From NCBI RefSeq assembly GCF_016756595.1, contig NZ_AP023257.1, positions 1,623,501-1,687,500 on the forward strand: a stretch of 64,000 nt of DNA, given 5' to 3'. The stretch comes from Mesorhizobium sp. L-2-11 (GTDB lineage Bacteria > Pseudomonadota > Alphaproteobacteria > Rhizobiales > Rhizobiaceae). The position numbers were made by a program, and so were the translations under genes. This document shows positions 10,959 through 64,000 of the stretch, one piece after another. Below the pieces are notes generated by a model. The model did not search any database and was not told the DNA's origin. It saw only the letters and a list, made by a program, of their open reading frames with translations. Each line of letters begins with the position of its first letter. Position 1 is the first letter of the stretch.

Positions 10959-11189
10959 CGTTTTCAACTCCTGGCACCCATCTTCCCCCTGAGACGGGAA
11001 TCCAGATCAAACTCGCTGTGCGTACCGGCATCTCGATATTGCAATTATATTAGTGTGAGCGCATGTTTTGATCAGCCGGCGCAAGCCGGTTAGGCCCGGC
11101 GGCCAGCCGGTCACCCCCAACAGGCTGCCGGGCCGCCCGCAACGGCTTGGGAGGACATGACATGCCGAAAATCTCGGAAGGAGGACGAG

Positions 11190-11645
11190 ATGAGACCGGT
11201 TAAGTCATTTGCATTTGCTGCTGTGCTGCTTCTTTCATCTGCATTGACTGCGGCCGCCCAGTCGGCTCGCGAGGACATCGAAGCGGCGCTGCCGAAATTC
11301 ATGGACGCCTTCAACAGCGGAAACGCGGCGGCGGTGGGTCAATTGTATACCGAGGACGCTGCCTTGCTGCCGCCCGACGGCAAGCGCGTCGATGGCCGCA
11401 AGGGCGTGGAAGAATTCTGGCAGAGCGCGATCAAAGGCGGGATGAAGAATCTCACCCTGAAGGCGCTGGAAGTGGAAGAGAGCGCGAACCTCGCATACGA
11501 AGTTGGCGCATTTACGCTCGATGTGCCGAGCAAAGACGGCCCCCTCTCCACCCTTGCGGGCAAGTACATTGTCGTCTGGAAAAAGGGCGACGACGGGACA
11601 TGGCGCCTGCATCGGGACATCTGGAATTTAGGTGCGGCCCAATAG
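11190..11645 (+). CDS. Secreted SnoaL/DUF4440-type (NTF2-fold) protein
   Basis: A 151-residue protein with a signal peptide (MRPVKSFAFAAVLLLSSALT, cleavage near AAAQS) and an NTF2-like cone domain: REDIEAALPKFMDAFNSGNA, VGQLYTEDAALLPPDG, and a terminal IVVWKKGDDGTWRLHRDIWN. Such domains form hydrophobic pockets and serve as enzymes or binding proteins; no function can be assigned. Start 11190 is preceded by GGAGG; a longer frame from 11157 has no better site. Confidence 0.85.
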   Translation: MRPVKSFAFAAVLLLSSALTAAAQSAREDIEAALPKFMDAFNSGNAAAVGQLYTEDAALLPPDGKRVDGRKGVEEFWQSAIKGGMKNLTLKALEVEESANLAYEVGAFTLDVPSKDGPLSTLAGKYIVVWKKGDDGTWRLHRDIWNLGAAQ

Positions 11646-11789
11646 GGATTGAAATCCAGGCCCCATTGACCGGCTTGGCGAAAGCTGCGGCGGGTTTTTT
11701 GCGTTGGAACAAAGGCTTAGAAAGTTCGGCTTCCGCGGCATTATTTCCTGTGCAGACATGCTGCGAGATCGGCTCGTCCCTCCGATCAG

Positions 11790-11829
11790 CCCGCGTCCTC
11801 TTCCCCTCCACGGGGCGCGGGCTTTCTTT
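11790..11829 (+). terminator. Likely rho-independent terminator after the NTF2-fold gene
   Basis: CCCGCG pairs with CGCGGG around an inner CCCC/GGGG pair, followed by CTTTCTTT. It lies 145 bp after the stop at 11645, between convergent genes, and could serve both. Confidence 0.45.
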
Positions 11830-11895
11830 GCCTATCGTACGGAATAGCCAACGACCAACCCGCGATCGGCGGCCCCAGGTCTGAGAGTTTGGTCA

Positions 11896-12084
11896 TCATT
11901 GTGCCGGCAATGCCTTCGCGGCAGCGGTCAGGGTTGCCCGATCGGTGCCGTGCTTGCGGATCAGCTCGCGCACCTGCTCCGGCGTGATGTTGTTCTGCAG
12001 AGCGAAATAATTCACTTCATAATCATCGCTCGCCGATATCTTGTTGCGGTCGCGAAAGTCGCGTTTGCCTTTGTCGTCTGCCAT
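11896..12084 (-). CDS. DUF3606 small protein
   Basis: A 62-residue protein with the DUF3606 pattern: MADDKGKRDFRDRNKISASD, YEVNYFALQNNITPEQVREL, IRKHGTDRATL. It is a paralogue of the proteins at 6683-7053. It is divergent from the DNA ligase gene (69 bp between starts); small DUF3606 genes often occur near such ligases in rhizobia as far as I recall, but the link is not established. Confidence 0.85.
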   Translation of the reverse strand: MADDKGKRDFRDRNKISASDDYEVNYFALQNNITPEQVRELIRKHGTDRATLTAAAKALPAQ

Positions 12085-12153
12085 ATCGCACGTCCTTTAG
12101 GATTCTCTAATATTGGCTATGGCTAATATACGGAGATGACCTAGACTGGTTCC

Positions 12154-13050
12154 ATGCGTAGGCGGGCAGATGCCGGCACCGGCCGGCTAGAGTTCATTCC
12201 CCCGATGGAGCCCAGGCTGGTGGCCATGCCGCCCGAGGGTGACGACTGGATTCACGAGATCAAGCTGGACGGCTACCGCGCCCAGATCATTGTCAACGGC
12301 CTCGAGGATATCCGCGTCTATGCCGAAACCGGTAAGGACTGGACGCGTAAATATCTGGGCATCGTCGAAGCTGCGGGTGAGCTTGAGGTCAAGAACGCCA
12401 TCATCGACGGCGAGGCGGTCGTCACCGACAAGGCCGGCATGCCCGACTTCAACGCGCTCCAGAACGCCGTCGACAACAATCCCTACGGCATGTACCTGTG
12501 CGCATTCGACATTCTGCACCTCGACGGCGATGATCTGCGCGACATCGGCTGCAAGGCGCGCCGTGAAATTCTCAGCGGTATCATCAAGCCGCACAGCCGG
12601 ATTCGGTTCAGCGAGGCCCTGCCTGGTGACGCGCAGTCGCTCTTCCACCTCGTCGAGGAGGTCGAGCTTGAGGGCATTGTCTCGAAGCGCGCCGACAGCA
12701 GATATCGCAGCGGCCTGACCTCGGACTGGCTGACGACCAAGAGCTTCACGGTCGATGAATTCGAACTGTTGGGCGTCGAGCGCCAGCCCGGCGAGGCAGC
12801 CTTCGCCCTTTTGGCGCAGCCCGGCACCGGGAAATATGTCGGTTCCGCCCTGATCAGCCTGGGCCGCGACATGAAGGAGCGGCTGTTGAAGCGGGTTCGG
12901 GAGCACGCCGGGCCGCCGCCAGAGGCAATGGAGAAGCGGCCGGGGACGCAATGGCTCAGGCCCGGGGTGAAGCTGCGCATCAAGCATCTTCGCGGCGACC
13001 ACAGCCAGATACGCAATGCGTCACTGATGGGTTTCGCTGACGACCAGTAG
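12154..13050 (+). CDS. ATP-dependent DNA ligase (LigC / LigD ligase-domain type)
   Basis: A 298-residue stand-alone ATP-dependent ligase that seals nicks in DNA through a lysine-AMP intermediate. Motif I is EIKLDGYRAQI with the adenylated Lys at about residue 37. Motif III is YLCAFDILHLDGDDLRD, motif IV is ELEGIVSKRADS, motif V is WLTTKSF (the second Lys of the usual WLKxK is kept). Residues about 200-298 form the OB-fold domain. It lacks the polymerase and phosphoesterase domains of full LigD, and no ku gene is next to it. A role in repair during stationary phase or non-homologous end joining is known for relatives; here it is inference. Confidence 0.92.
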   Translation: MRRRADAGTGRLEFIPPMEPRLVAMPPEGDDWIHEIKLDGYRAQIIVNGLEDIRVYAETGKDWTRKYLGIVEAAGELEVKNAIIDGEAVVTDKAGMPDFNALQNAVDNNPYGMYLCAFDILHLDGDDLRDIGCKARREILSGIIKPHSRIRFSEALPGDAQSLFHLVEEVELEGIVSKRADSRYRSGLTSDWLTTKSFTVDEFELLGVERQPGEAAFALLAQPGTGKYVGSALISLGRDMKERLLKRVREHAGPPPEAMEKRPGTQWLRPGVKLRIKHLRGDHSQIRNASLMGFADDQ

Positions 13051-13308
13051 CGTCCTCTGGGCATCGGCTTAGCCGCTCGACCGCCTGGGTGATCGCCAGG
13101 CAATGCACGCGGCACTACCGGGGCATGAAGATGCCGGCGACACAGTGGCAAACCGGAGATGGTCTGCCGCGTGATGCACTTGCATGGCAAGGAAGACCTG
13201 CCGCGTGGCTCGCTGCAATATTTAGTAGAAATACTAAGAAAGTGGGCCTTGCTTTGTTTTGCGCCGATGTCCTATCTGCTTCAACTACTTTTAGTCTGAG
13301 GGGCGGGT

Positions 13309-13725
13309 ATGAAACAGAGTCAGGATGGCAATCGGCGATCATCCGCAGGCAGCGCGTTGGCGATCGGGCTTTTGATATCGAGCATATCTCTGGCAGGGTG
13401 CACTACAGTTTCCACTGGCGGTGCGGATGGATGGCTTATGAAGCGAAATGCTGACGCGGTTTCCGACGCAATGGCTAAGAAAGGCATGATGCCCGCAACG
13501 GTCGACTGCCGGTTCGATAGCACTGATTTGGACAAAGAGGCCTTTGGATTAAAATTTACGTGGAAACCTGCCCCATCAGACTTTTTCTGGCTATGGCACG
13601 TCGGCTATCCCGATTACGTTGCGACGAAGGAAGCTAGATCACGCGCACTCGGCCTTCATCGCGTGTTTTCGAAAAGGGTTCGTGATCCGGCAACGGGTCA
13701 AGTAGTGTCGATCTGGACGAGTTGA
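13309..13725 (+). CDS. Small lipoprotein, unknown function
   Basis: A 138-residue protein with a type II signal: GSALAIGLLISSISLAGC, lipobox LAGC with the lipidated Cys at about residue 31. The mature part has one more Cys (VDCRFD) and a Trp-rich segment (FTWKPAPSDFFWLWHVGYPDY). I do not recognise the family. It is a single gene between the ligase and a frameshifted secreted protein. Confidence 0.75.
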   Translation: MKQSQDGNRRSSAGSALAIGLLISSISLAGCTTVSTGGADGWLMKRNADAVSDAMAKKGMMPATVDCRFDSTDLDKEAFGLKFTWKPAPSDFFWLWHVGYPDYVATKEARSRALGLHRVFSKRVRDPATGQVVSIWTS

Positions 13726-13914
13726 TCCTCTCAGCGGCGTACGGATCTGTGCGGGGGGCGCTCAGCAATGGGAGTGCCCACCGCGATCTGCATTATGCGA
13801 CGATTGAGCCGCTACGGACATGCCCGGCTGGGCGGCAACCAGGCCGCGAATCGGCCGCAATGCCCCGGTTCAACTAGCTGCTGAGGCTCATGATATCCCT
13901 GAGGTGCGTGAAGT

Positions 13915-14593
13915 ATGAAGTATCCGTTGTCTCTGGGCATTGTGCTTTTTTCGATACCTTTATCGGCATCGGAGATCATCCTTGAGCAGGTCACATTGCG
14001 CCGCGGGATGGAAGGCGACACCAGGCAGTCGGGAGCCTTGGACGATCCGAAAACCTACAGCAAAAACAAGGTGTACCGTGAGGAAAAGGAACTCGCAGCG
14101 CAAGCTGGCATCAAGATAGACCAATTCCTGGATGATTACTATGCGAAAGGATTTCGGAAAGAATCTGGAGCCAACAAAGCAGTGCACTACCTGATATTCT
14201 ACAATTCAATCTCGGCGCCGCAGTGCAAGATACTACCAAGAGAATAGAAAGATTTCGAGCAAAGCAGTCGAGTATCTTGTCGAAGTTTTTAAGCTGAACA
14301 GCTACGGGCACACCAAACGTGCCGACGGTCACGTTCAGCTTCATTTTCTGGGGGACGTCCAATCGAGAAAGACTGTCGTCGACATCGAGGTCGGTTGCGG
14401 CGAGGTGCGCGGCGTGACCGATGGATTGGCCTGGCCGTTCCAGCAGAAAATCCTGTTTAGAAAGTTGCAGGATTATTCCAACAAGCCTGGCCTCTACGAC
14501 AAGATCAGCTTCGAGTTCTCCAGGTCCTACAGCTTTGCTTCGGAATTCGACCGGAATGGACACAAGATAACGCTGCCGAATTTTCTTAGGTAA
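13915..14593 (+). pseudogene. Secreted protein of unknown function, frameshifted
   Basis: The first frame starts at 13915 with a signal peptide (MKYPLSLGIVLFSIPLSASE) and runs to 14247. A second frame continues without Met through ENRKISSKAVEYLVEVFKLN, LHFLGDVQSRKTVVDIEVG, DGLAWPFQQKILFRKLQDY to FDRNGHKITLPNFLR, ending 14593. Removing one base in the GCGCCGC stretch near 14217 joins them as one protein of about 225 residues. No family recognised. The coding character of the second half supports one broken gene, or a sequencing error. Confidence 0.65.
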
Positions 14594-14817
14594 GCTTCCT
14601 CGAACGACCTTGCTCGCTTCCCGGCTGAAGCATCTGATCTGAGCCGTGCCCGACTTTCCTTTCAGCCGCCGCCGAGACTCGAAGATTTTTTTACGGCGAC
14701 AGTGCACCTTTTGTCTTCTTCTGTTCCCGCATTCCAGATCGTGCCCGCGGCCTCACGGTGGCGCGGCCTATCGATGGGTACACCGGAACCAGAGCTTGGC
14801 GATTCGGTTAACTGGAT

Positions 14818-14982
14818 ATGCCAAACAAAATCAAAGACCCGCCACCGAAGCCCGCCCCGAAGAAGACACCTGTCCGTCGTCCTGACAAGGAAGCGTCGCC
14901 GGAGCCTGAACATGTGGACCCGCCGCCACGAGACGTGCGCGAGGCTCCGGCACCAAATCCACACGGCGATAGGAAGTCCTGA
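14818..14982 (+). CDS. Proline-rich small protein (tentative)
   Basis: A 54-residue frame starting MPNKIKDPPPKPAPKKTPVR and ending NPHGDRKS. It is rich in Pro, Lys and charged residues and looks disordered. There is no strong ribosome-binding site, and no family is recognised. It is listed because the composition is not what a random GC-rich frame gives and the surrounding 700 bp has no other gene on this strand. Confidence 0.35.
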   Translation: MPNKIKDPPPKPAPKKTPVRRPDKEASPEPEHVDPPPRDVREAPAPNPHGDRKS

Positions 14983-15066
14983 CCGCCGCGGTGGTGCCCG
15001 AACACGTGGGAGAGCATCACATCGAGCCCTTGAGACTGGTTCGAGGTGCAGCCGCCCGATATCTAT

Positions 15067-15300
15067 CTACGCGGCGCGTCGTTGAGCGAGGTGGAAACCC
15101 GAACGGGCTCGACGGGGCTCGACGACGGTCACGATGCTGTGGTGGTGATCGCAGTACACACGGTCAGGCGAAGTTGGCCCAGCACAAAAGCGGTGACCGC
15201 CGGGTACTGACCGATCTTCGCGAACCGGGAAGCGGCATTGATAGGGGCCTAGCTTCATGAGGGGGACGTCACTCGTAGTTAGTCTGGCATTTTCAGGCAT
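15067..15300 (-). CDS. GcrA-like zinc-binding mini-protein
   Basis: A 77-residue frame from ATG 15300 (MPENARLTTSDVPLMKLGPY). It contains QCRFPV, then GGHRFCAGP, then YCDHHHSIV, the Cys/His pattern of the C-terminal part of GcrA, the alphaproteobacterial cell-cycle regulator (C-x-[WF]-P ... FCG ... YCxxH). The N-terminal helix-turn-helix of GcrA is absent. AGAAAGAC precedes the start. It may be a short paralogue or a remnant; activity as a regulator is not supported. Confidence 0.5.
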   Translation of the reverse strand: MPENARLTTSDVPLMKLGPYQCRFPVREDRSVPGGHRFCAGPTSPDRVYCDHHHSIVTVVEPRRARSGFHLAQRRAA

Positions 15301-15674
15301 GATGTCTTTCTGGTTCCTAAAGGTTGGCCGTCGCCATGATCCAATAGTCTGATTTCCACTGTGGAGGGCAGCGACTGCGTCGGGCGAATTTATCTCGCTT
15401 GGCTGGCTATGGAACACCATGTGGTGTCGGGAACTGCTTCAAGCAATTGCTTGCGGCTAGAAGCCACACCGCTGCTGATGGGGGCGCGAAGCAGGCATGT
15501 GCCGGTTGACCCGCCGGGGCAGGCGGAAGCGTCATTCCGGCTGGTTCGAGAATGCGGCAGGCTGTCGCGGATCGGCCCCGCGCAAAGCGCCAACCGAAGG
15601 GGCAACGAAAGGTGCAAGTAAATTCGACGATGATTGATATTTCTAAGCTAAAACAACCTTTTAGCAAGGGAGTC
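15301..15674. other. No gene recognised
   Basis: This 374-bp interval between the GcrA-like gene and tRNA-Ser has only short frames with no family resemblance, no ribosome-binding site and no clear repeat. It probably includes the promoter of the GcrA-like gene. Confidence 0.5.
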
Positions 15675-15764
15675 TGGCGGAGAGAGCGGGATTCGAACCC
15701 GCGTTACGGTTTCCCGTAAACACACTTTCCAGGCGTGCGCCTTCAACCACTCGGCCACCTCTCC
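15675..15764 (-). tRNA. tRNA-Ser (GGA)
   Basis: Complete 90-nt cloverleaf on the minus strand: acceptor GGAGAGG pairs with the terminal CTCTCC, the anticodon loop is CTGGAAA (anticodon GGA, reading UCC and UCU), there is a long variable arm (TACGG/CCGTA), T-arm GGTTCGAATCC, and an encoded CCA. It is class II as expected for Ser. It stands alone and probably is the housekeeping copy; a different-sequence isoacceptor lies at 63171-63262. Confidence 0.97.
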
Positions 15765-16166
15765 GTCATTTCGCCGCGGCCGGTTTCGCCGCGCGGGTTG
15801 GGGAGATGCCGTCTCCCTCGGGAAAATTCCGGTCCGGAACTCCGCACCGCAGGCGCCGTCAACCAGCGGACACCTTTTCTCCGCACCTGAGCCGTCAAAG
15901 CAACAGGCGCGGGGCTCATCTAGTCGATCCGGTGCCGAATGCCAAGACGCTCTATTCGCTTTGTCGGACAGGGATGCTCTGTCCATGCCACCAGCGCTGC
16001 TTGGCAAGCCGATCGCCGCGATCGGCGTCGTCTTGGCCGACCGACGCCTCAGCGGCGAAAACCGGCGGCGCAGGTTCAACTTCGCGTGTCGCGATTGCGG
16101 ATATAGCGCGCAGATCCTATTTATCAGGCCGATACAGATTTCTGATTCCGGGGAGGAAAGGTCTGC
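15765..16166. other. No gene recognised
   Basis: 402 bp between tRNA-Ser and the small membrane protein gene. It should hold the tRNA promoter (minus strand). A GGACAG/CTGTCC hairpin lies near 15964-15983. No coding frame is convincing. Confidence 0.45.
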
Positions 16167-16484
16167 ATGTTCCGCTTTCTTTTCCGTCTTGCCGCAATGG
16201 TTGCGCTTGCGGTTTCGGTGATCATGGCGGTGATCGACGCGACCCGCTCGGTGGCCGCCTCCGTGCTGGTCATGACCCCGCTCAACACAAGCTGGCTCGC
16301 CGTCTCGCCGGATACGCGAAGCGCCTTCGAAAGCTTCGTCCGCGAAAAGCTTGGTCCGCTGCTGTGGGACGGCGCCATCGCCTGGGTGCTCAACCAGCCC
16401 GGTTTCGCCGTGTTCGCGGTGGTTGCCTTCATTCTCTACTTGATCGGCTACAGGCGGGAGCGGCCGACCAGGCGGTTCGCCTAG
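16167..16484 (+). CDS. Small two-span membrane protein, conserved-hypothetical type
   Basis: A 105-residue protein with hydrophobic segments at about residues 3-25 ([20 protein letters not shown]) and 78-95 ([17 protein letters not shown]), and a short basic tail. The central part has [16 protein letters not shown] and [17 protein letters not shown] recall similar proteins in Rhizobiales without assigned role. GGGGAGGAAAGG precedes the start. It is 73 bp upstream of msrA and may share its transcript. Confidence 0.75.
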
Positions 16485-16557
16485 ACTTGATGATTTGTTG
16501 TCGTTTGGTGTTCCCAAACAAAGACAAGCTCCAAACAAAAAGAAAAGGAGACTGCAC

Positions 16558-17220
16558 ATGTTTCTCAGCGACATGCTGAACAAGAAGCTCAACCTGCCGA
16601 AGCCTGCCGAGGCGCTGCCGGGTCGCGCCAGCCCTATCCCGACGGCATCCAATCACTTTGTCTCGAAGCGGCCGCTGAAGGGGCCCTATCCCGAGGGCCT
16701 GGAGAAGGCGATGTTCGGGCTGGGCTGTTTTTGGGGCGCGGAACGCCTGTTCTGGCAGGTCGAGGGCGTGTGGGTCACGGCCGTCGGCTATGCCGGTGGC
16801 GTCACCCCCAATCCGACCTACCAGGAAACCTGCACCGGTTTGACCGGCCATGCCGAAGTCGTGCTGGTCGTCTACGACCCGAAGATCGTGTCCTATGCAC
16901 AGCTTCTGAAGCTGTTCTGGGAAAGCCACGACCCGACACAGGGCATGCGCCAGGGCAACGACGTCGGCACCACCTACCGCTCGACGATCTACACCTTCGG
17001 TGATGCGCAATATCAGGCGGCGATCGCCTCGCGCGACGCCTACGAGGCCTCGTTGCGCGGCGCCGGGCGCGGCAAGATCACCACCGAGATCGCGCCGGCG
17101 CCGGAATTCTACTTCGCCGAGGAAGACCACCAGCAATATCTGGCGAAGAATCCCTACGGCTATTGCAATCTGCAGGGCACCGGCGTCGCCTGCGCCATCC
17201 CGGCGGCCGCCTCCGTTTGA
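16558..17220 (+). CDS. msrA: MsrA, peptide-methionine (S)-S-oxide reductase
   Basis: A 220-residue enzyme that reduces the S-epimer of methionine sulfoxide in proteins and free Met, a repair step after oxidative damage. The catalytic Cys lies in [14 protein letters not shown] (about residue 56). Other family motifs: [55 protein letters not shown]. The C-terminal NLQGTGVAC offers a recycling Cys. Start at 16558 ([10 protein letters not shown]) has AAAAGGAG upstream; the frame is open to 16495 but without a site. Confidence 0.96.
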
Positions 17221-61781: not shown

Positions 61782-62210
61782 TTACGTCGCGTGCGCGCCG
61801 CCGGGAACGACGACGCCGGCCATGGCGATGCCGGCGTTTGCCGGATCTTCCTTCAGCGCCGCGTCTGCGAGCGAAACGACGCCCACCAGGCGCTTGTCGC
61901 GATTGAGGACAGGCAAACGCCTGACCTGGATATCACCCATGTTCTGGACGACATCGTCGATATCTTCGTCCTCGAAGCAGTATTTGACATCCTTGGTCAT
62001 CACGTCGCGGACCGTCGCATTGCCGTCTTTGCCTTCGGCGACCGCACGCACGACGATGTCACGGTCGGTGATCGTTCCGACAAGTCGGTCGTTTTCTCCG
62101 ACGGGCAGGAATCCGACATCGTCAACCGCCATGCGTTTCGCGATCTTCTGCAAGGACTCGCCAGGACTGGCGAGATGAACGTTGGGGGTCATTATCTCAG
62201 CGACTTTCAT
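61782..62210 (-). CDS. Tandem CBS-domain protein
   Basis: A 142-residue protein made of two CBS motifs: MKVAEIMTPNVHLASPGESL, MAVDDVGFLPVGENDRLVGT, ITDRDIVVRAVAEGKD, then VRDVMTKDVKYCFEDEDIDD and RRLPVLNRDKRLVGVVSLAD. The pair forms a Bateman module that binds adenine nucleotides. Stand-alone forms are common in rhizobia and often stress-linked. Confidence 0.92.
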   Translation of the reverse strand: MKVAEIMTPNVHLASPGESLQKIAKRMAVDDVGFLPVGENDRLVGTITDRDIVVRAVAEGKDGNATVRDVMTKDVKYCFEDEDIDDVVQNMGDIQVRRLPVLNRDKRLVGVVSLADAALKEDPANAGIAMAGVVVPGGAHAT

Positions 62211-62370: not shown

Positions 62371-62400
62371 TTGAATTTTCCCGTTTTGTTCCCATATAGA
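62371..62400 (+). promoter_or_regulatory. Candidate promoter of the RNase P RNA / tRNA array
   Basis: TTGAAT (62371-62376) and TATAGA (62395-62400) with an 18-bp spacer, in an AT-richer stretch just ahead of the structured RNA region. No gene starts here on the plus strand, so the promoter would serve the RNA array. Confidence 0.45.
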
Positions 62401-62479: not shown

Positions 62480-62787
62480 ACAGAGACCAGATCTCCGGGC
62501 TGCCGCGCACTAAGCGACTGATGTCGTGGAGCGAGGAAAGTCCGGGCTTCGCCGACACACCCCAGCAGGTAATGCCTGCCCGCCGCGAGGCGAGCCACGG
62601 CAACAGAGACGAGCCATCCCCGCCGGGATGGGTGAAACGGGCGACAGGGTGGGGGAAGCAACCGCAAGAAGTGCCCCTGTGACCTGTGTCGGGGAGGGCC
62701 GTGGTGGCGGGCAAGGAGGCGCCTGGCGACAGGCGTCCAAGAGGAATGGCAGCCCTCGACAGAACCCGGCTTAAGGTGGCGAGAACC
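62480..62787 (+). ncRNA. rnpB: RNase P RNA, compact and divergent
   Basis: Catalytic RNA that removes tRNA 5' leaders. Conserved blocks in order: GAGGAAAGTCCGGGCT (62533-62548, P4 5' side), CAACAGAGA (62601-62609), GGTGAAACGGG (62631-62641), AGAGGAATGGCAG, and GACAGAACCCGGCTTA (62758-62773, P4 3' side). P2 is an 8-bp pairing, GGGCTGCC 62497-62504 with GGCAGCCC 62748-62755. Other helices: P8 GCAGG/CCTGC (62565-62579), P9 CGCC-GCGA-GGCG (62581-62592), P12 CCATCCC/GGGATGG (62614-62631), P18 CGCCTG-GCGA-CAGGCG (62720-62735). The P13/P14 region seems missing. Ends are approximate. Confidence 0.88.
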
Positions 62788-62812: not shown

Positions 62813-62889
62813 CGGAGTGTAGCGTAGCCTGGCAGCGCACCTCGTTTGGGACGAGGGGGCCGCAGGTTCGAATCCTGCCACTCCGACCA
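62813..62889 (+). tRNA. tRNA-Pro (UGG)
   Basis: 77-nt cloverleaf: acceptor CGGAGTG/CACTCCG, anticodon loop TTTGGGA (anticodon TGG), T-arm GGTTCGAATCC, encoded ACCA. First tRNA of the array; 25 nt after the RNase P RNA end. A CGGCTC/GAGCCG hairpin directly overlaps its 5' side. Confidence 0.97.
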
Positions 62890-62952: not shown

Positions 62953-63037
62953 GCGGACGTGGCGGAACCGGTAGACGCAGCCGGCTTAAACCCGGCGGGC
63001 ATTCCCGTCGCGAGTTCGAATCTCGCCGTCCGCACCA
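62953..63037 (+). tRNA. tRNA-Leu (UAA)
   Basis: 85-nt class II tRNA: acceptor GCGGACG/CGTCCGC, anticodon stem GCCGG/CCGGC with loop CTTAAAC (anticodon TAA), long variable arm, T-arm GAGTTCGAATCTC, encoded CCA. Confidence 0.97.
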
Positions 63038-63170: not shown

Positions 63171-63262
63171 GGACAGGTGGCCGAGCGGCTGAAGGCGCCC
63201 GCCTGGAAAGTGGGTAGACGGCGCAAACCGTCTCGCGGGTTCGAATCCTGCCCTGTCCGCCA
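63171..63262 (+). tRNA. tRNA-Ser (GGA), array copy
   Basis: 92-nt class II tRNA: acceptor GGACAGG/CCTGTCC, anticodon loop CTGGAAA (GGA), variable arm GACGGCGCAAACCGTC, encoded GCCA. Same anticodon as the solitary gene at 15675-15764, but clearly different in acceptor, D-arm and variable arm, so not a simple duplicate. Confidence 0.97.
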
Positions 63263-63367: not shown

Positions 63368-63452
63368 GGAGGGGTGGCCGAGCGGTTAATGGCAGCAGTC
63401 TGTAAAACTGCTCTCTTTGAGTTCGTAGGTTCGAATCCTACTCCCTCCACCA
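63368..63452 (+). tRNA. tRNA-Tyr (GUA)
   Basis: 85-nt class II tRNA: acceptor GGAGGGG with TCCCTCC (one G-T pair), anticodon stem GCAGT/ACTGC with loop CTGTAAA (anticodon GTA), variable arm, T-arm AGGTTCGAATCCT, encoded ACCA. Confidence 0.97.
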
Positions 63453-63506: not shown

Positions 63507-63593
63507 GCGGCCGTGGCGGAAATGGTAGACGCACCGCACTCAAGATGCGGCGCCGCCCGTGGCGTGCCGGTTCAATTCCGGCCGGCCGCACCA
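63507..63593 (+). tRNA. tRNA-Leu (CAA)
   Basis: 87-nt class II tRNA: acceptor GCGGCCG/CGGCCGC, anticodon stem CCGCA/TGCGG with loop CTCAAGA (anticodon CAA), long variable arm, T-arm CCGGTTCAATTCCGG, encoded ACCA. Confidence 0.97.
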
Positions 63594-63616: not shown

Positions 63617-63690
63617 GGCGCCGTGGGAGAACGGCTATCCGGCGGACTGCAACTCCGTGTATGCCGGTTCGAGTCCGGCTGGCGCCTCCA
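63617..63690 (+). tRNA. tRNA-Cys (GCA)
   Basis: 74-nt class I tRNA: acceptor GGCGCCG with TGGCGCC, anticodon stem GCGGA/TCCGT with loop CTGCAAC (anticodon GCA), T-arm CCGGTTCGAGTCCGG, encoded TCCA. Confidence 0.96.
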
Positions 63691-63836: not shown

Positions 63837-63985
63837 ATCGCACAGGCTCTGGATAACCGAAAGCGAGCATTGCTGTCGTAATCCCATTGCTGCAGCCAGC
63901 AAGGCTCGACCTGATTGAAATCCGGGCAACGCAGCACGATGCCAAGCCGGCAATGGAATTTACAGGTCATTTCACCAAAAGGTGC

Positions 63986-63991
63986 TTGACA
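63986..63991 (+). promoter_or_regulatory. -35 box of a transcription unit beyond the window
   Basis: TTGACA, preceded by a G/C-poor stretch, lies 9 bases from the right edge; its -10 would be outside. It suggests that a new RNA or gene follows the tRNA array. Confidence 0.35.
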
Positions 63992-64000
63992 CGAAACCGA

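Follow-up and report, generated by a model that had tools for sequence, protein, structure and literature searches.

The locus considered here raises the question of why a genome with a housekeeping rnpB should carry a second RNase P RNA at the head of a tRNA array, and whether this second RNA still works. It lies in a stretch of 64,000 nt from Mesorhizobium sp. L-2-11 (NZ_AP023257.1, positions 1,623,501–1,687,500), which is referred to as the window and whose coordinates are used throughout. In the reading that we regard as probable, a foreign block consisting of a compact RNase P RNA and up to eight tRNAs was acquired by a Mesorhizobium ancestor and, weakly selected, is still adding RNase P activity.

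The identity of the RNA was established by a match to the Rfam model RF00010 over 62487–62783 on the + strand (model positions 1–367, 125 bits, E = 7.5e-38), the gathering score of this model being 100 bits. A hand-drawn structure with helices P1, P2, P3b, P4–P9, P12, P15, P16 and P18 was then applied to nine copies of the RNA, and the pairs kept in each copy were counted. The main features are as follows:

62487–62774, + strand: compact type A RNase P RNA, without P13/P14 and the P1 3′ strand (RF00010, structure count, alignment with eight relatives)
62497–62504, + strand: P2 5′ strand (8/8 pairs with 62748–62755)
62538–62546, + strand: P4 5′ strand with bulged U, conserved region I (8/8 pairs with 62765–62772)
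62553–62559, + strand: P6 5′ strand, type A pseudoknot (7/7 pairs with 62685–62691 in 9/9 copies)
62685–62691, + strand: P6 3′ strand, in loop 17 (structure count)
62748–62755, + strand: P2 3′ strand (structure count)
62765–62772, + strand: P4 3′ strand, conserved region V (structure count)

The P6 pseudoknot with P15–P17 is the hallmark of type A. In the window copy, all pairs are kept in P2, P3b, P4, P5, P6, P7, P8, P9, P12, P15 (4/4), P16 (4/4) and P18. The J11/12 and J12/11 motif (ACAGA, GGUGAAA), which serves the tRNA T arm, is present, and in loop 15, whose GGU serves the tRNA 3′ CCA, the GUGGU of the window copy aligns to CGGGU of the model. The RF00010 alignment of the window copy skips 43 model positions after GGUGAAA, i.e., at the place of P13/P14. 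The original prediction, which had described RNase P RNA blocks with a perfect 8-bp P2 in a divergent, compact RNA with no visible P13/P14, is therefore upheld by the score, the P2 count and this gap. P13 and P14 are usual in bacterial type A RNase P RNA but not obligatory. Bacteria without P13, P14 and P18 are called “not uncommon” in a passage of PMC8172020.

In contrast to these helices, P1 is damaged in the window copy, where it forms only 5/12 pairs because about 20 nt, including the P1 3′ strand, are missing after 62774 (the CTTA of conserved region V) in the alignment with the other copies; P1 forms 12/12 pairs in six copies, 10 in G019 and 9 in G159. P1 lies outside the catalytic core, and the window copy may therefore be weakened rather than dead. 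The structure as drawn pairs 97.5% of cells, versus 32–49% for slid versions, and the window holds a single match to the size pattern, versus 0/100 shuffles with one. Covariation is weak: 2 of the 81 pairs changed on both sides, which was reached by 30/500 shuffles and is too thin to prove the structure.

The compact RNA is accessory to a full-length housekeeping rnpB, found with RF00010 in the same genome (398 nt, 312 bits) 1.3 Mb away. A housekeeping gene of about 400 nt located elsewhere had been anticipated; the core expected for it, TCCGGACTCC, proved wrong, since the host gene reads TCCGGGCTCC (alignment row ALPHA_L001). By blastn, the compact gene is present in only 9 of the 146 genomes of the genus Mesorhizobium; four more matches in the genus span only 34–39 bases, one of which is known to sit in an ordinary rnpB. 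The compact RNA is thus neither the sole rnpB of this genome nor the sole rnpB throughout its close relatives, in agreement with the accessory role first suggested. Wider searches gave a similar picture. A second, compact RF00010 match was obtained only in the genome itself and G019 among 41 genomes (its own and 40 relatives), and the family sample of 394 genomes gave one match, the genome itself. When named genomes were scanned with a sequence pattern, Mesorhizobium wenxiniae WYCCWR 10195 (L071) was among the matches listed (80 of at least 119 stretches). In a sample of 249 Pseudomonadota genomes that are at least 95% complete, two matches were seen in the genome itself and in G1295, the second match of the latter being below the cut-off (33.6 bits), so that a second match over the cut-off was found only in the genome itself. 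G867 and G556, which came from another search, have two full-length copies over the cut-off each; their assemblies comprise 80 and 510 contigs, and contamination, at 3 and 6%, may be the source of the double copies. One RF00010 match each was found in G658 and G1020.

A further model, R1, was run over 397 genomes of the order and 385 of the class, where it also matches ordinary rnpB. Among the matches listed, spans of about 140–150 nt were obtained in the genome itself and in G1096, G1266, G1189 and G977, and shorter spans in G639 and G578. In the four genomes G1096, G1266, G1189 and G977 (L297–L300), which are alphaproteobacteria of about 0.9 Mb, the sole compact-model match is a P13/P14-less RNase P RNA; the reduction therefore arose or moved more than once. 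Separately, the compact rnpB on a contig filed under Rhodobacteraceae (L111, PARX01000056.1) looks by eye like that of Methylophilaceae, and the contig is perhaps mis-binned.

Behind the compact RNA, ARAGORN reads eight tRNAs on the + strand between 62813 and 63836 (1024 bases), which confirms the co-oriented genes noticed earlier. All of them were obtained with both an Rfam search and ARAGORN:

62813–62889, + strand: tRNA-Pro(TGG)
62953–63037, + strand: tRNA-Leu(TAA), with C38
63078–63169, + strand: tRNA-Ser(CGA)
63171–63262, + strand: tRNA-Ser(GGA)
63368–63452, + strand: tRNA-Tyr(GTA)
63507–63593, + strand: tRNA-Leu(CAA), with G37
63617–63690, + strand: tRNA-Cys(GCA), with C38
63745–63836, + strand: tRNA-Ser(GCT)

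The minimum tRNA number usual for tRNA array units is higher than eight. A search for other copies beside tRNA arrays, proposed at the outset, showed that tRNAs of the same set stand behind the compact RNA in 9/9 copies; the array comprises eight tRNAs in three genomes, three in another three, and six, five and two in one genome each, and some of the relatives' arrays may be cut by contig ends. Each of the eight array anticodons occurs once more in the genome (56 tRNAs read). The identities between array and host copies are 0.86 for Pro, 0.78 for Leu-TAA, 0.82 for Ser-CGA, 0.85 for Ser-GGA, 0.73 for Tyr, 0.74 for Leu-CAA, 0.72 for Cys and 0.74 for Ser-GCT, the array Pro being 0.91 identical to the host Pro-CGG. 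With only 72–86% identity to host tRNAs of the same anticodon, the array tRNAs, and therefore the block, look foreign.

The array is directly upstream of an rRNA operon, and a gene for a CBS-domain protein precedes the compact RNA:

61782–62210, − strand: CBS-domain protein (PF00571), inside the stretch absent at four empty sites
63837–64000, + strand: stretch leading into the rRNA operon (2.5 kb just past the window are masked and presumably hold 16S, then 23S and 5S)

In the stretch used for the operon downstream of the array (L003, genome C1 1676501–1696500), the masked part covers 11001–13500 and is followed by 23S at 13851–16670 (2714.7 bits) and 5S at 16945–17059. G075 has 23S-like DNA in the same order, and the contigs of draft relatives stop no more than about 1.5 kb past the compact RNA, as expected at a repeated operon. 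Nine further rRNA operons were inspected, one in G075 and eight in seven genomes that lack the compact RNA; no tRNAs were seen upstream of them, where 2.5–5 kb next to 16S are masked.

Ten fetched genomes with HlyD and without the RNA, five of these in one or two contigs, served as a sample for empty sites. In four of the ten (G150, G139, G044 and G086), and thus in four of the five with one or two contigs, HlyD directly abuts post-operon DNA; approximately 9.5 kb with the CBS gene, the RNA, the tRNAs and the operon are therefore an insertion relative to them. A simple empty site is not seen in G106, the fifth of the one-or-two-contig genomes, or in the drafts G123 and G158, where HlyD is followed by different DNA, and the contigs of G070 and G124 end before the site. 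In G072, the CBS gene is followed by an operon leader that matches G019 at 94% over 70 bases, without RNA or tRNAs before the contig end. A 48-base direct repeat flanking the stretch was considered as an integration site and rejected as a dispersed repeat, since G072 has a copy next to its CBS gene as well. The original prediction had envisaged a mobile array. However, all nine genomes with the compact RNA share the same neighbours, and no mobility gene was found among nine neighbouring reading frames scanned, two of which are artefacts of the masked stretch and two without match. On an HlyD tree of 24 of the 98 genomes with HlyD, the presence of the compact RNA is patchy, since some genomes inside the clade lack it and G075, which has it, falls outside, so that a single gain is not proven.

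Whether the RNA is still under selection was judged from its upstream region and its divergence. A promoter-like element ends 88 bases before the start of the RNA match:

62371–62399, + strand: promoter-like TTGAAT – 17 nt – ATATAG (read from the sequence)

This element was not flagged by a consensus promoter scan. It is kept in eight aligned genomes as TTGAA(T/G) and A(T/A)ATA(A/G) with the same spacing. Among six genomes, the mean divergence of the compact RNA is 0.045 with 0.8% gaps, compared with 0.104 for the leader, 0.096 and 0.105 for the spacers, 0.084 for the intergenic stretch between CBS and promoter, 0.107 for CBS third positions, 0.049 for the whole CBS gene, and 0.017 and 0.020 for the first two tRNAs. 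In these six copies, the compact RNA changes 0.4–0.5 times as fast as the non-coding flanks and the third positions of CBS, a constraint which is overstated because the set leaves out three copies with core lesions (G159 being absent from the 8-genome alignment).

These data bear on the alternative that the compact RNA is a decaying relic, inactive in every strain and a bystander of a tRNA array delivered by a phage or plasmid, so that only the tRNAs, or nothing, matter. Lesions of the kind expected for a relic are found in several relatives, with P4 damaged in G159, G053 and G075: one base of P4 is lost in G159; three bases before P4 are lost in G053, which also has GGTCAAA in place of the GGUGAAA motif; CTT of P4 is lost in G075; G161 has three extra bases in P2; and the loop-15 GGU is changed in G156. 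By contrast, strains of the G118, G116 and G019 type have copies that look intact. Between G000 and G019, the compact RNA is 95.1% identical and the host rnpB 99.5%, i.e., there is approximately ten times more difference in the compact RNA, and its patchy presence would also suit a relic. The loss of P1 in the window copy and of core letters in three relatives suggests that the compact RNA is dispensable today, and in some relatives it looks to be wearing away. However, inactivity in every strain is at odds with the lowered rate and few gaps of the six copies, with the promoter-like site kept in eight genomes, and with P5, P6, P9 and P15, which are fully paired in 9/9 copies. We regard a relic as rather unlikely.

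Two related alternatives give the linkage between the RNA and the tRNAs, seen in every copy, a larger meaning. According to one, a transferable tRNA package with a dedicated compact RNase P RNA came from a phage or plasmid, was biased toward UNN codons and partly freed from A36-A37-A38, and was later captured beside the rRNA operon; we offer this only tentatively and consider it rather doubtful. According to the other, which is improbable, the RNA would be a specialised ribozyme dedicated to the array pre-tRNAs, and would have come from a large phage or plasmid in a package serving anti-defence or codon supply. The array is enriched in readers of UNN codons (6/8 versus 9/47 other tRNAs, Fisher p = 0.003) and in class II tRNAs with a long variable arm (6/8 versus 10/47, p = 0.005), both properties having been chosen after seeing the data. 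The A36-A37-A38 motif is needed by MiaA. It is kept in all nine host tRNAs reading UNN codons, whereas C38 is found in the array Leu-TAA of 8/8 genomes and in the array Cys of 5/5 genomes; G37 occurs in the array Leu-CAA of the genome itself, and three other genomes lack it. Moreover, Ser-CGA followed by Ser-GGA also occurs in Caulobacter jumbo phages with 71–73% DNA identity. Against a dedicated ribozyme, the T-arm recognition letters look ordinary, and the biases were examined only after the fact.

A phage source was sought and rejected. No blastn match to the compact RNA was obtained in 50,697 phage records, and of the 147 records matched by the array, Caulobacter and Rhizobium phages included, none was matched over at least 80% of the array length. 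Two results also speak against a dedicated ribozyme. RF00010 found no match in 11 of 12 whole phage records, with filters that can lose weak matches; the twelfth, the doubtful record of Microcystis phage MaAM05 (MW495066.1), has an rnpB (115284–115683, 251.8 bits) and is probably bacterial, with fabI, engB and glyS nearby. Two compact-RNA patterns gave 0 and 1 viral contig, the latter not being confirmed. No relative of the CBS protein was found in viral contigs. GAGGAAAGTCCGGGCTTC occurs in 13 viral contigs, of which 11 carry a complete rnpB of standard size and L028 a cut one; L030 has no RF00010 match over the cut-off. Among viral contigs, it was also observed that L026 (G549:C1:51723-52066; IMG/VR 3300049217_000071, 268 kb) carries an RNase P RNA of standard size (344 nt, 308 bits) among phage-type genes (HNH endonuclease, endonuclease VII, RNA ligase and tail fibre); this RNA is possibly phage-encoded. 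A similar RNase P RNA of standard size in L024 lies about 4 kb from Cys and Ser tRNAs.

Plasmids gave no close counterpart either. Among the matches listed, the locus matched 282 plasmid records over at most 12% of its length, and the array alone matched 68 records over at most 9%. A betaproteobacterial rnpB query gave 34 plasmid records, six of which were opened; in the stretches concerned, five lack tRNA genes and the sixth has a single tRNA-Met. The opened records were set aside, since their genes suggest pieces of chromosome or large replicons and, in one case, a prophage-like plasmid with host genes; the exception is L283, which carries no annotation.

The origin of the compact RNA was approached through alignments and trees. 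In the alignments made, its identity to sequences outside its group does not exceed 0.67. In a first tree, its long branch falls between the RNAs of alphaproteobacteria and those of betaproteobacteria. A second, which leaves out the rows BETA_L033, BETA_L055, OTHER_L279 and OTHER_L024 of the first, groups it with P13/P14-less RNAs of betaproteobacteria and of the 0.9 Mb alphaproteobacteria (support 100, long branches). A value of 0.79 for compact–host identity from a global alignment was set aside as gap-rich. An internal duplication of the host rnpB with P13/P14 lost after copying is highly improbable: although the identity of the compact RNA to the host gene (0.63–0.66) is as high as that to the best betaproteobacterial compact RNAs (0.63–0.65), the second tree groups it with the P13/P14-less RNAs, the words ACAGAGACGAG and GGTGAAACG are shared with the betaproteobacterial group and not with the host, and the adjoining tRNAs look foreign. 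The compact RNA, like them, looks foreign and acquired.

The reading that we prefer, an acquired block still adding RNase P activity under weak selection, would work as follows. The foreign block would have entered the ancestor of some Mesorhizobium strains, presumably in this direction of transfer, and settled directly upstream of the rRNA operon. The RNA and the tRNAs would be co-transcribed from the putative sigma-70-like promoter before the RNA. The compact RNA would pair with the host RnpA protein and, as a predicted ribozyme, may cut the 5′ leaders of both array and host pre-tRNAs, and the block would supply duplicates of isoacceptors that the host already has. Selection on the compact RNA would be weak because the full-length housekeeping rnpB is present; partial conservation, the varying tRNA number and the loss of core letters or P1 in some strains would reflect this. 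Such a block would not be the “self-sufficient” module originally envisaged, since the protein subunit and the other maturation enzymes would still be those of the host.

Several known systems share parts of this arrangement. The compact, P13/P14-less rnpB of Nitrosomonadales, Thiobacillus and Methylophilaceae belongs to the same size class and has the two words in common with the Mesorhizobium RNA. However, it scores 234–254 bits with RF00010 (seven scored), versus 125–134 for the Mesorhizobium compact RNA, and, unlike in Mesorhizobium, no tRNA gene lies within up to 8 kb of it (9 loci scanned); there, it is presumably the housekeeping gene. The tRNA clusters of Caulobacter and Brevundimonas jumbo phages are dense and co-oriented like the Mesorhizobium array, and phiCbK and CcrBL9 have the Ser-CGA, Ser-GGA order, but the whole records of these phages have no RF00010 match. 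Mycobacterial tRNA arrays are far larger than that of Mesorhizobium. According to the parts of PMC9569102 consulted, large mycobacterial tRNA clusters are tied to phage-borne transfer and often stand beside an HNH gene and GOLLD RNA. These units thus resemble the Mesorhizobium block as horizontally moved tRNA clusters with a large non-coding RNA, whereas the companion RNA described there is GOLLD rather than RNase P RNA. A term search of the available text of two papers on mycobacterial arrays (PMC12803027, PMC5966550) found no mention of RNase P.

Extra RNase P RNAs beside the regular one are described, in the same parts of PMC9569102, for Mycobacterium austroafricanum and M. sp. YC-RL4; one has an altered specificity domain, conserved residues are kept, their function is given as unknown, and a horizontal origin is suggested. 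Like the Mesorhizobium RNA, these are additional, in one case altered, and suspected to be horizontally acquired. In contrast, two copies lie around an endonuclease gene, and those passages describe no link to a tRNA array or rRNA operon. No description of an RNase P RNA linked to a tRNA array was found in open-licence literature, as judged from titles and the abstract starts of the best matches, or in the portions of PMC6582537, PMC2996960 and PMC2245857 that were available. Loss of P13/P14 is thus already known, and a second, altered RNase P RNA of suspected horizontal origin has been reported, whereas these searches gave no published case of one linked to a tRNA array.

What is new is an RNase P RNA–tRNA block directly upstream of an rRNA operon, with empty sites in relatives. 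The bold idea that the tRNAs form a transferable supply package equipped with a processing ribozyme rests on the linkage. Nine genomes with linked, foreign-looking RNase P RNA and tRNAs offer a natural test of whether tRNA clusters gain from having a matching processing enzyme, and of how a type A RNase P RNA evolves where the host already has a functional one; they also point to the rRNA operon as a settling place of such a tRNA cluster.
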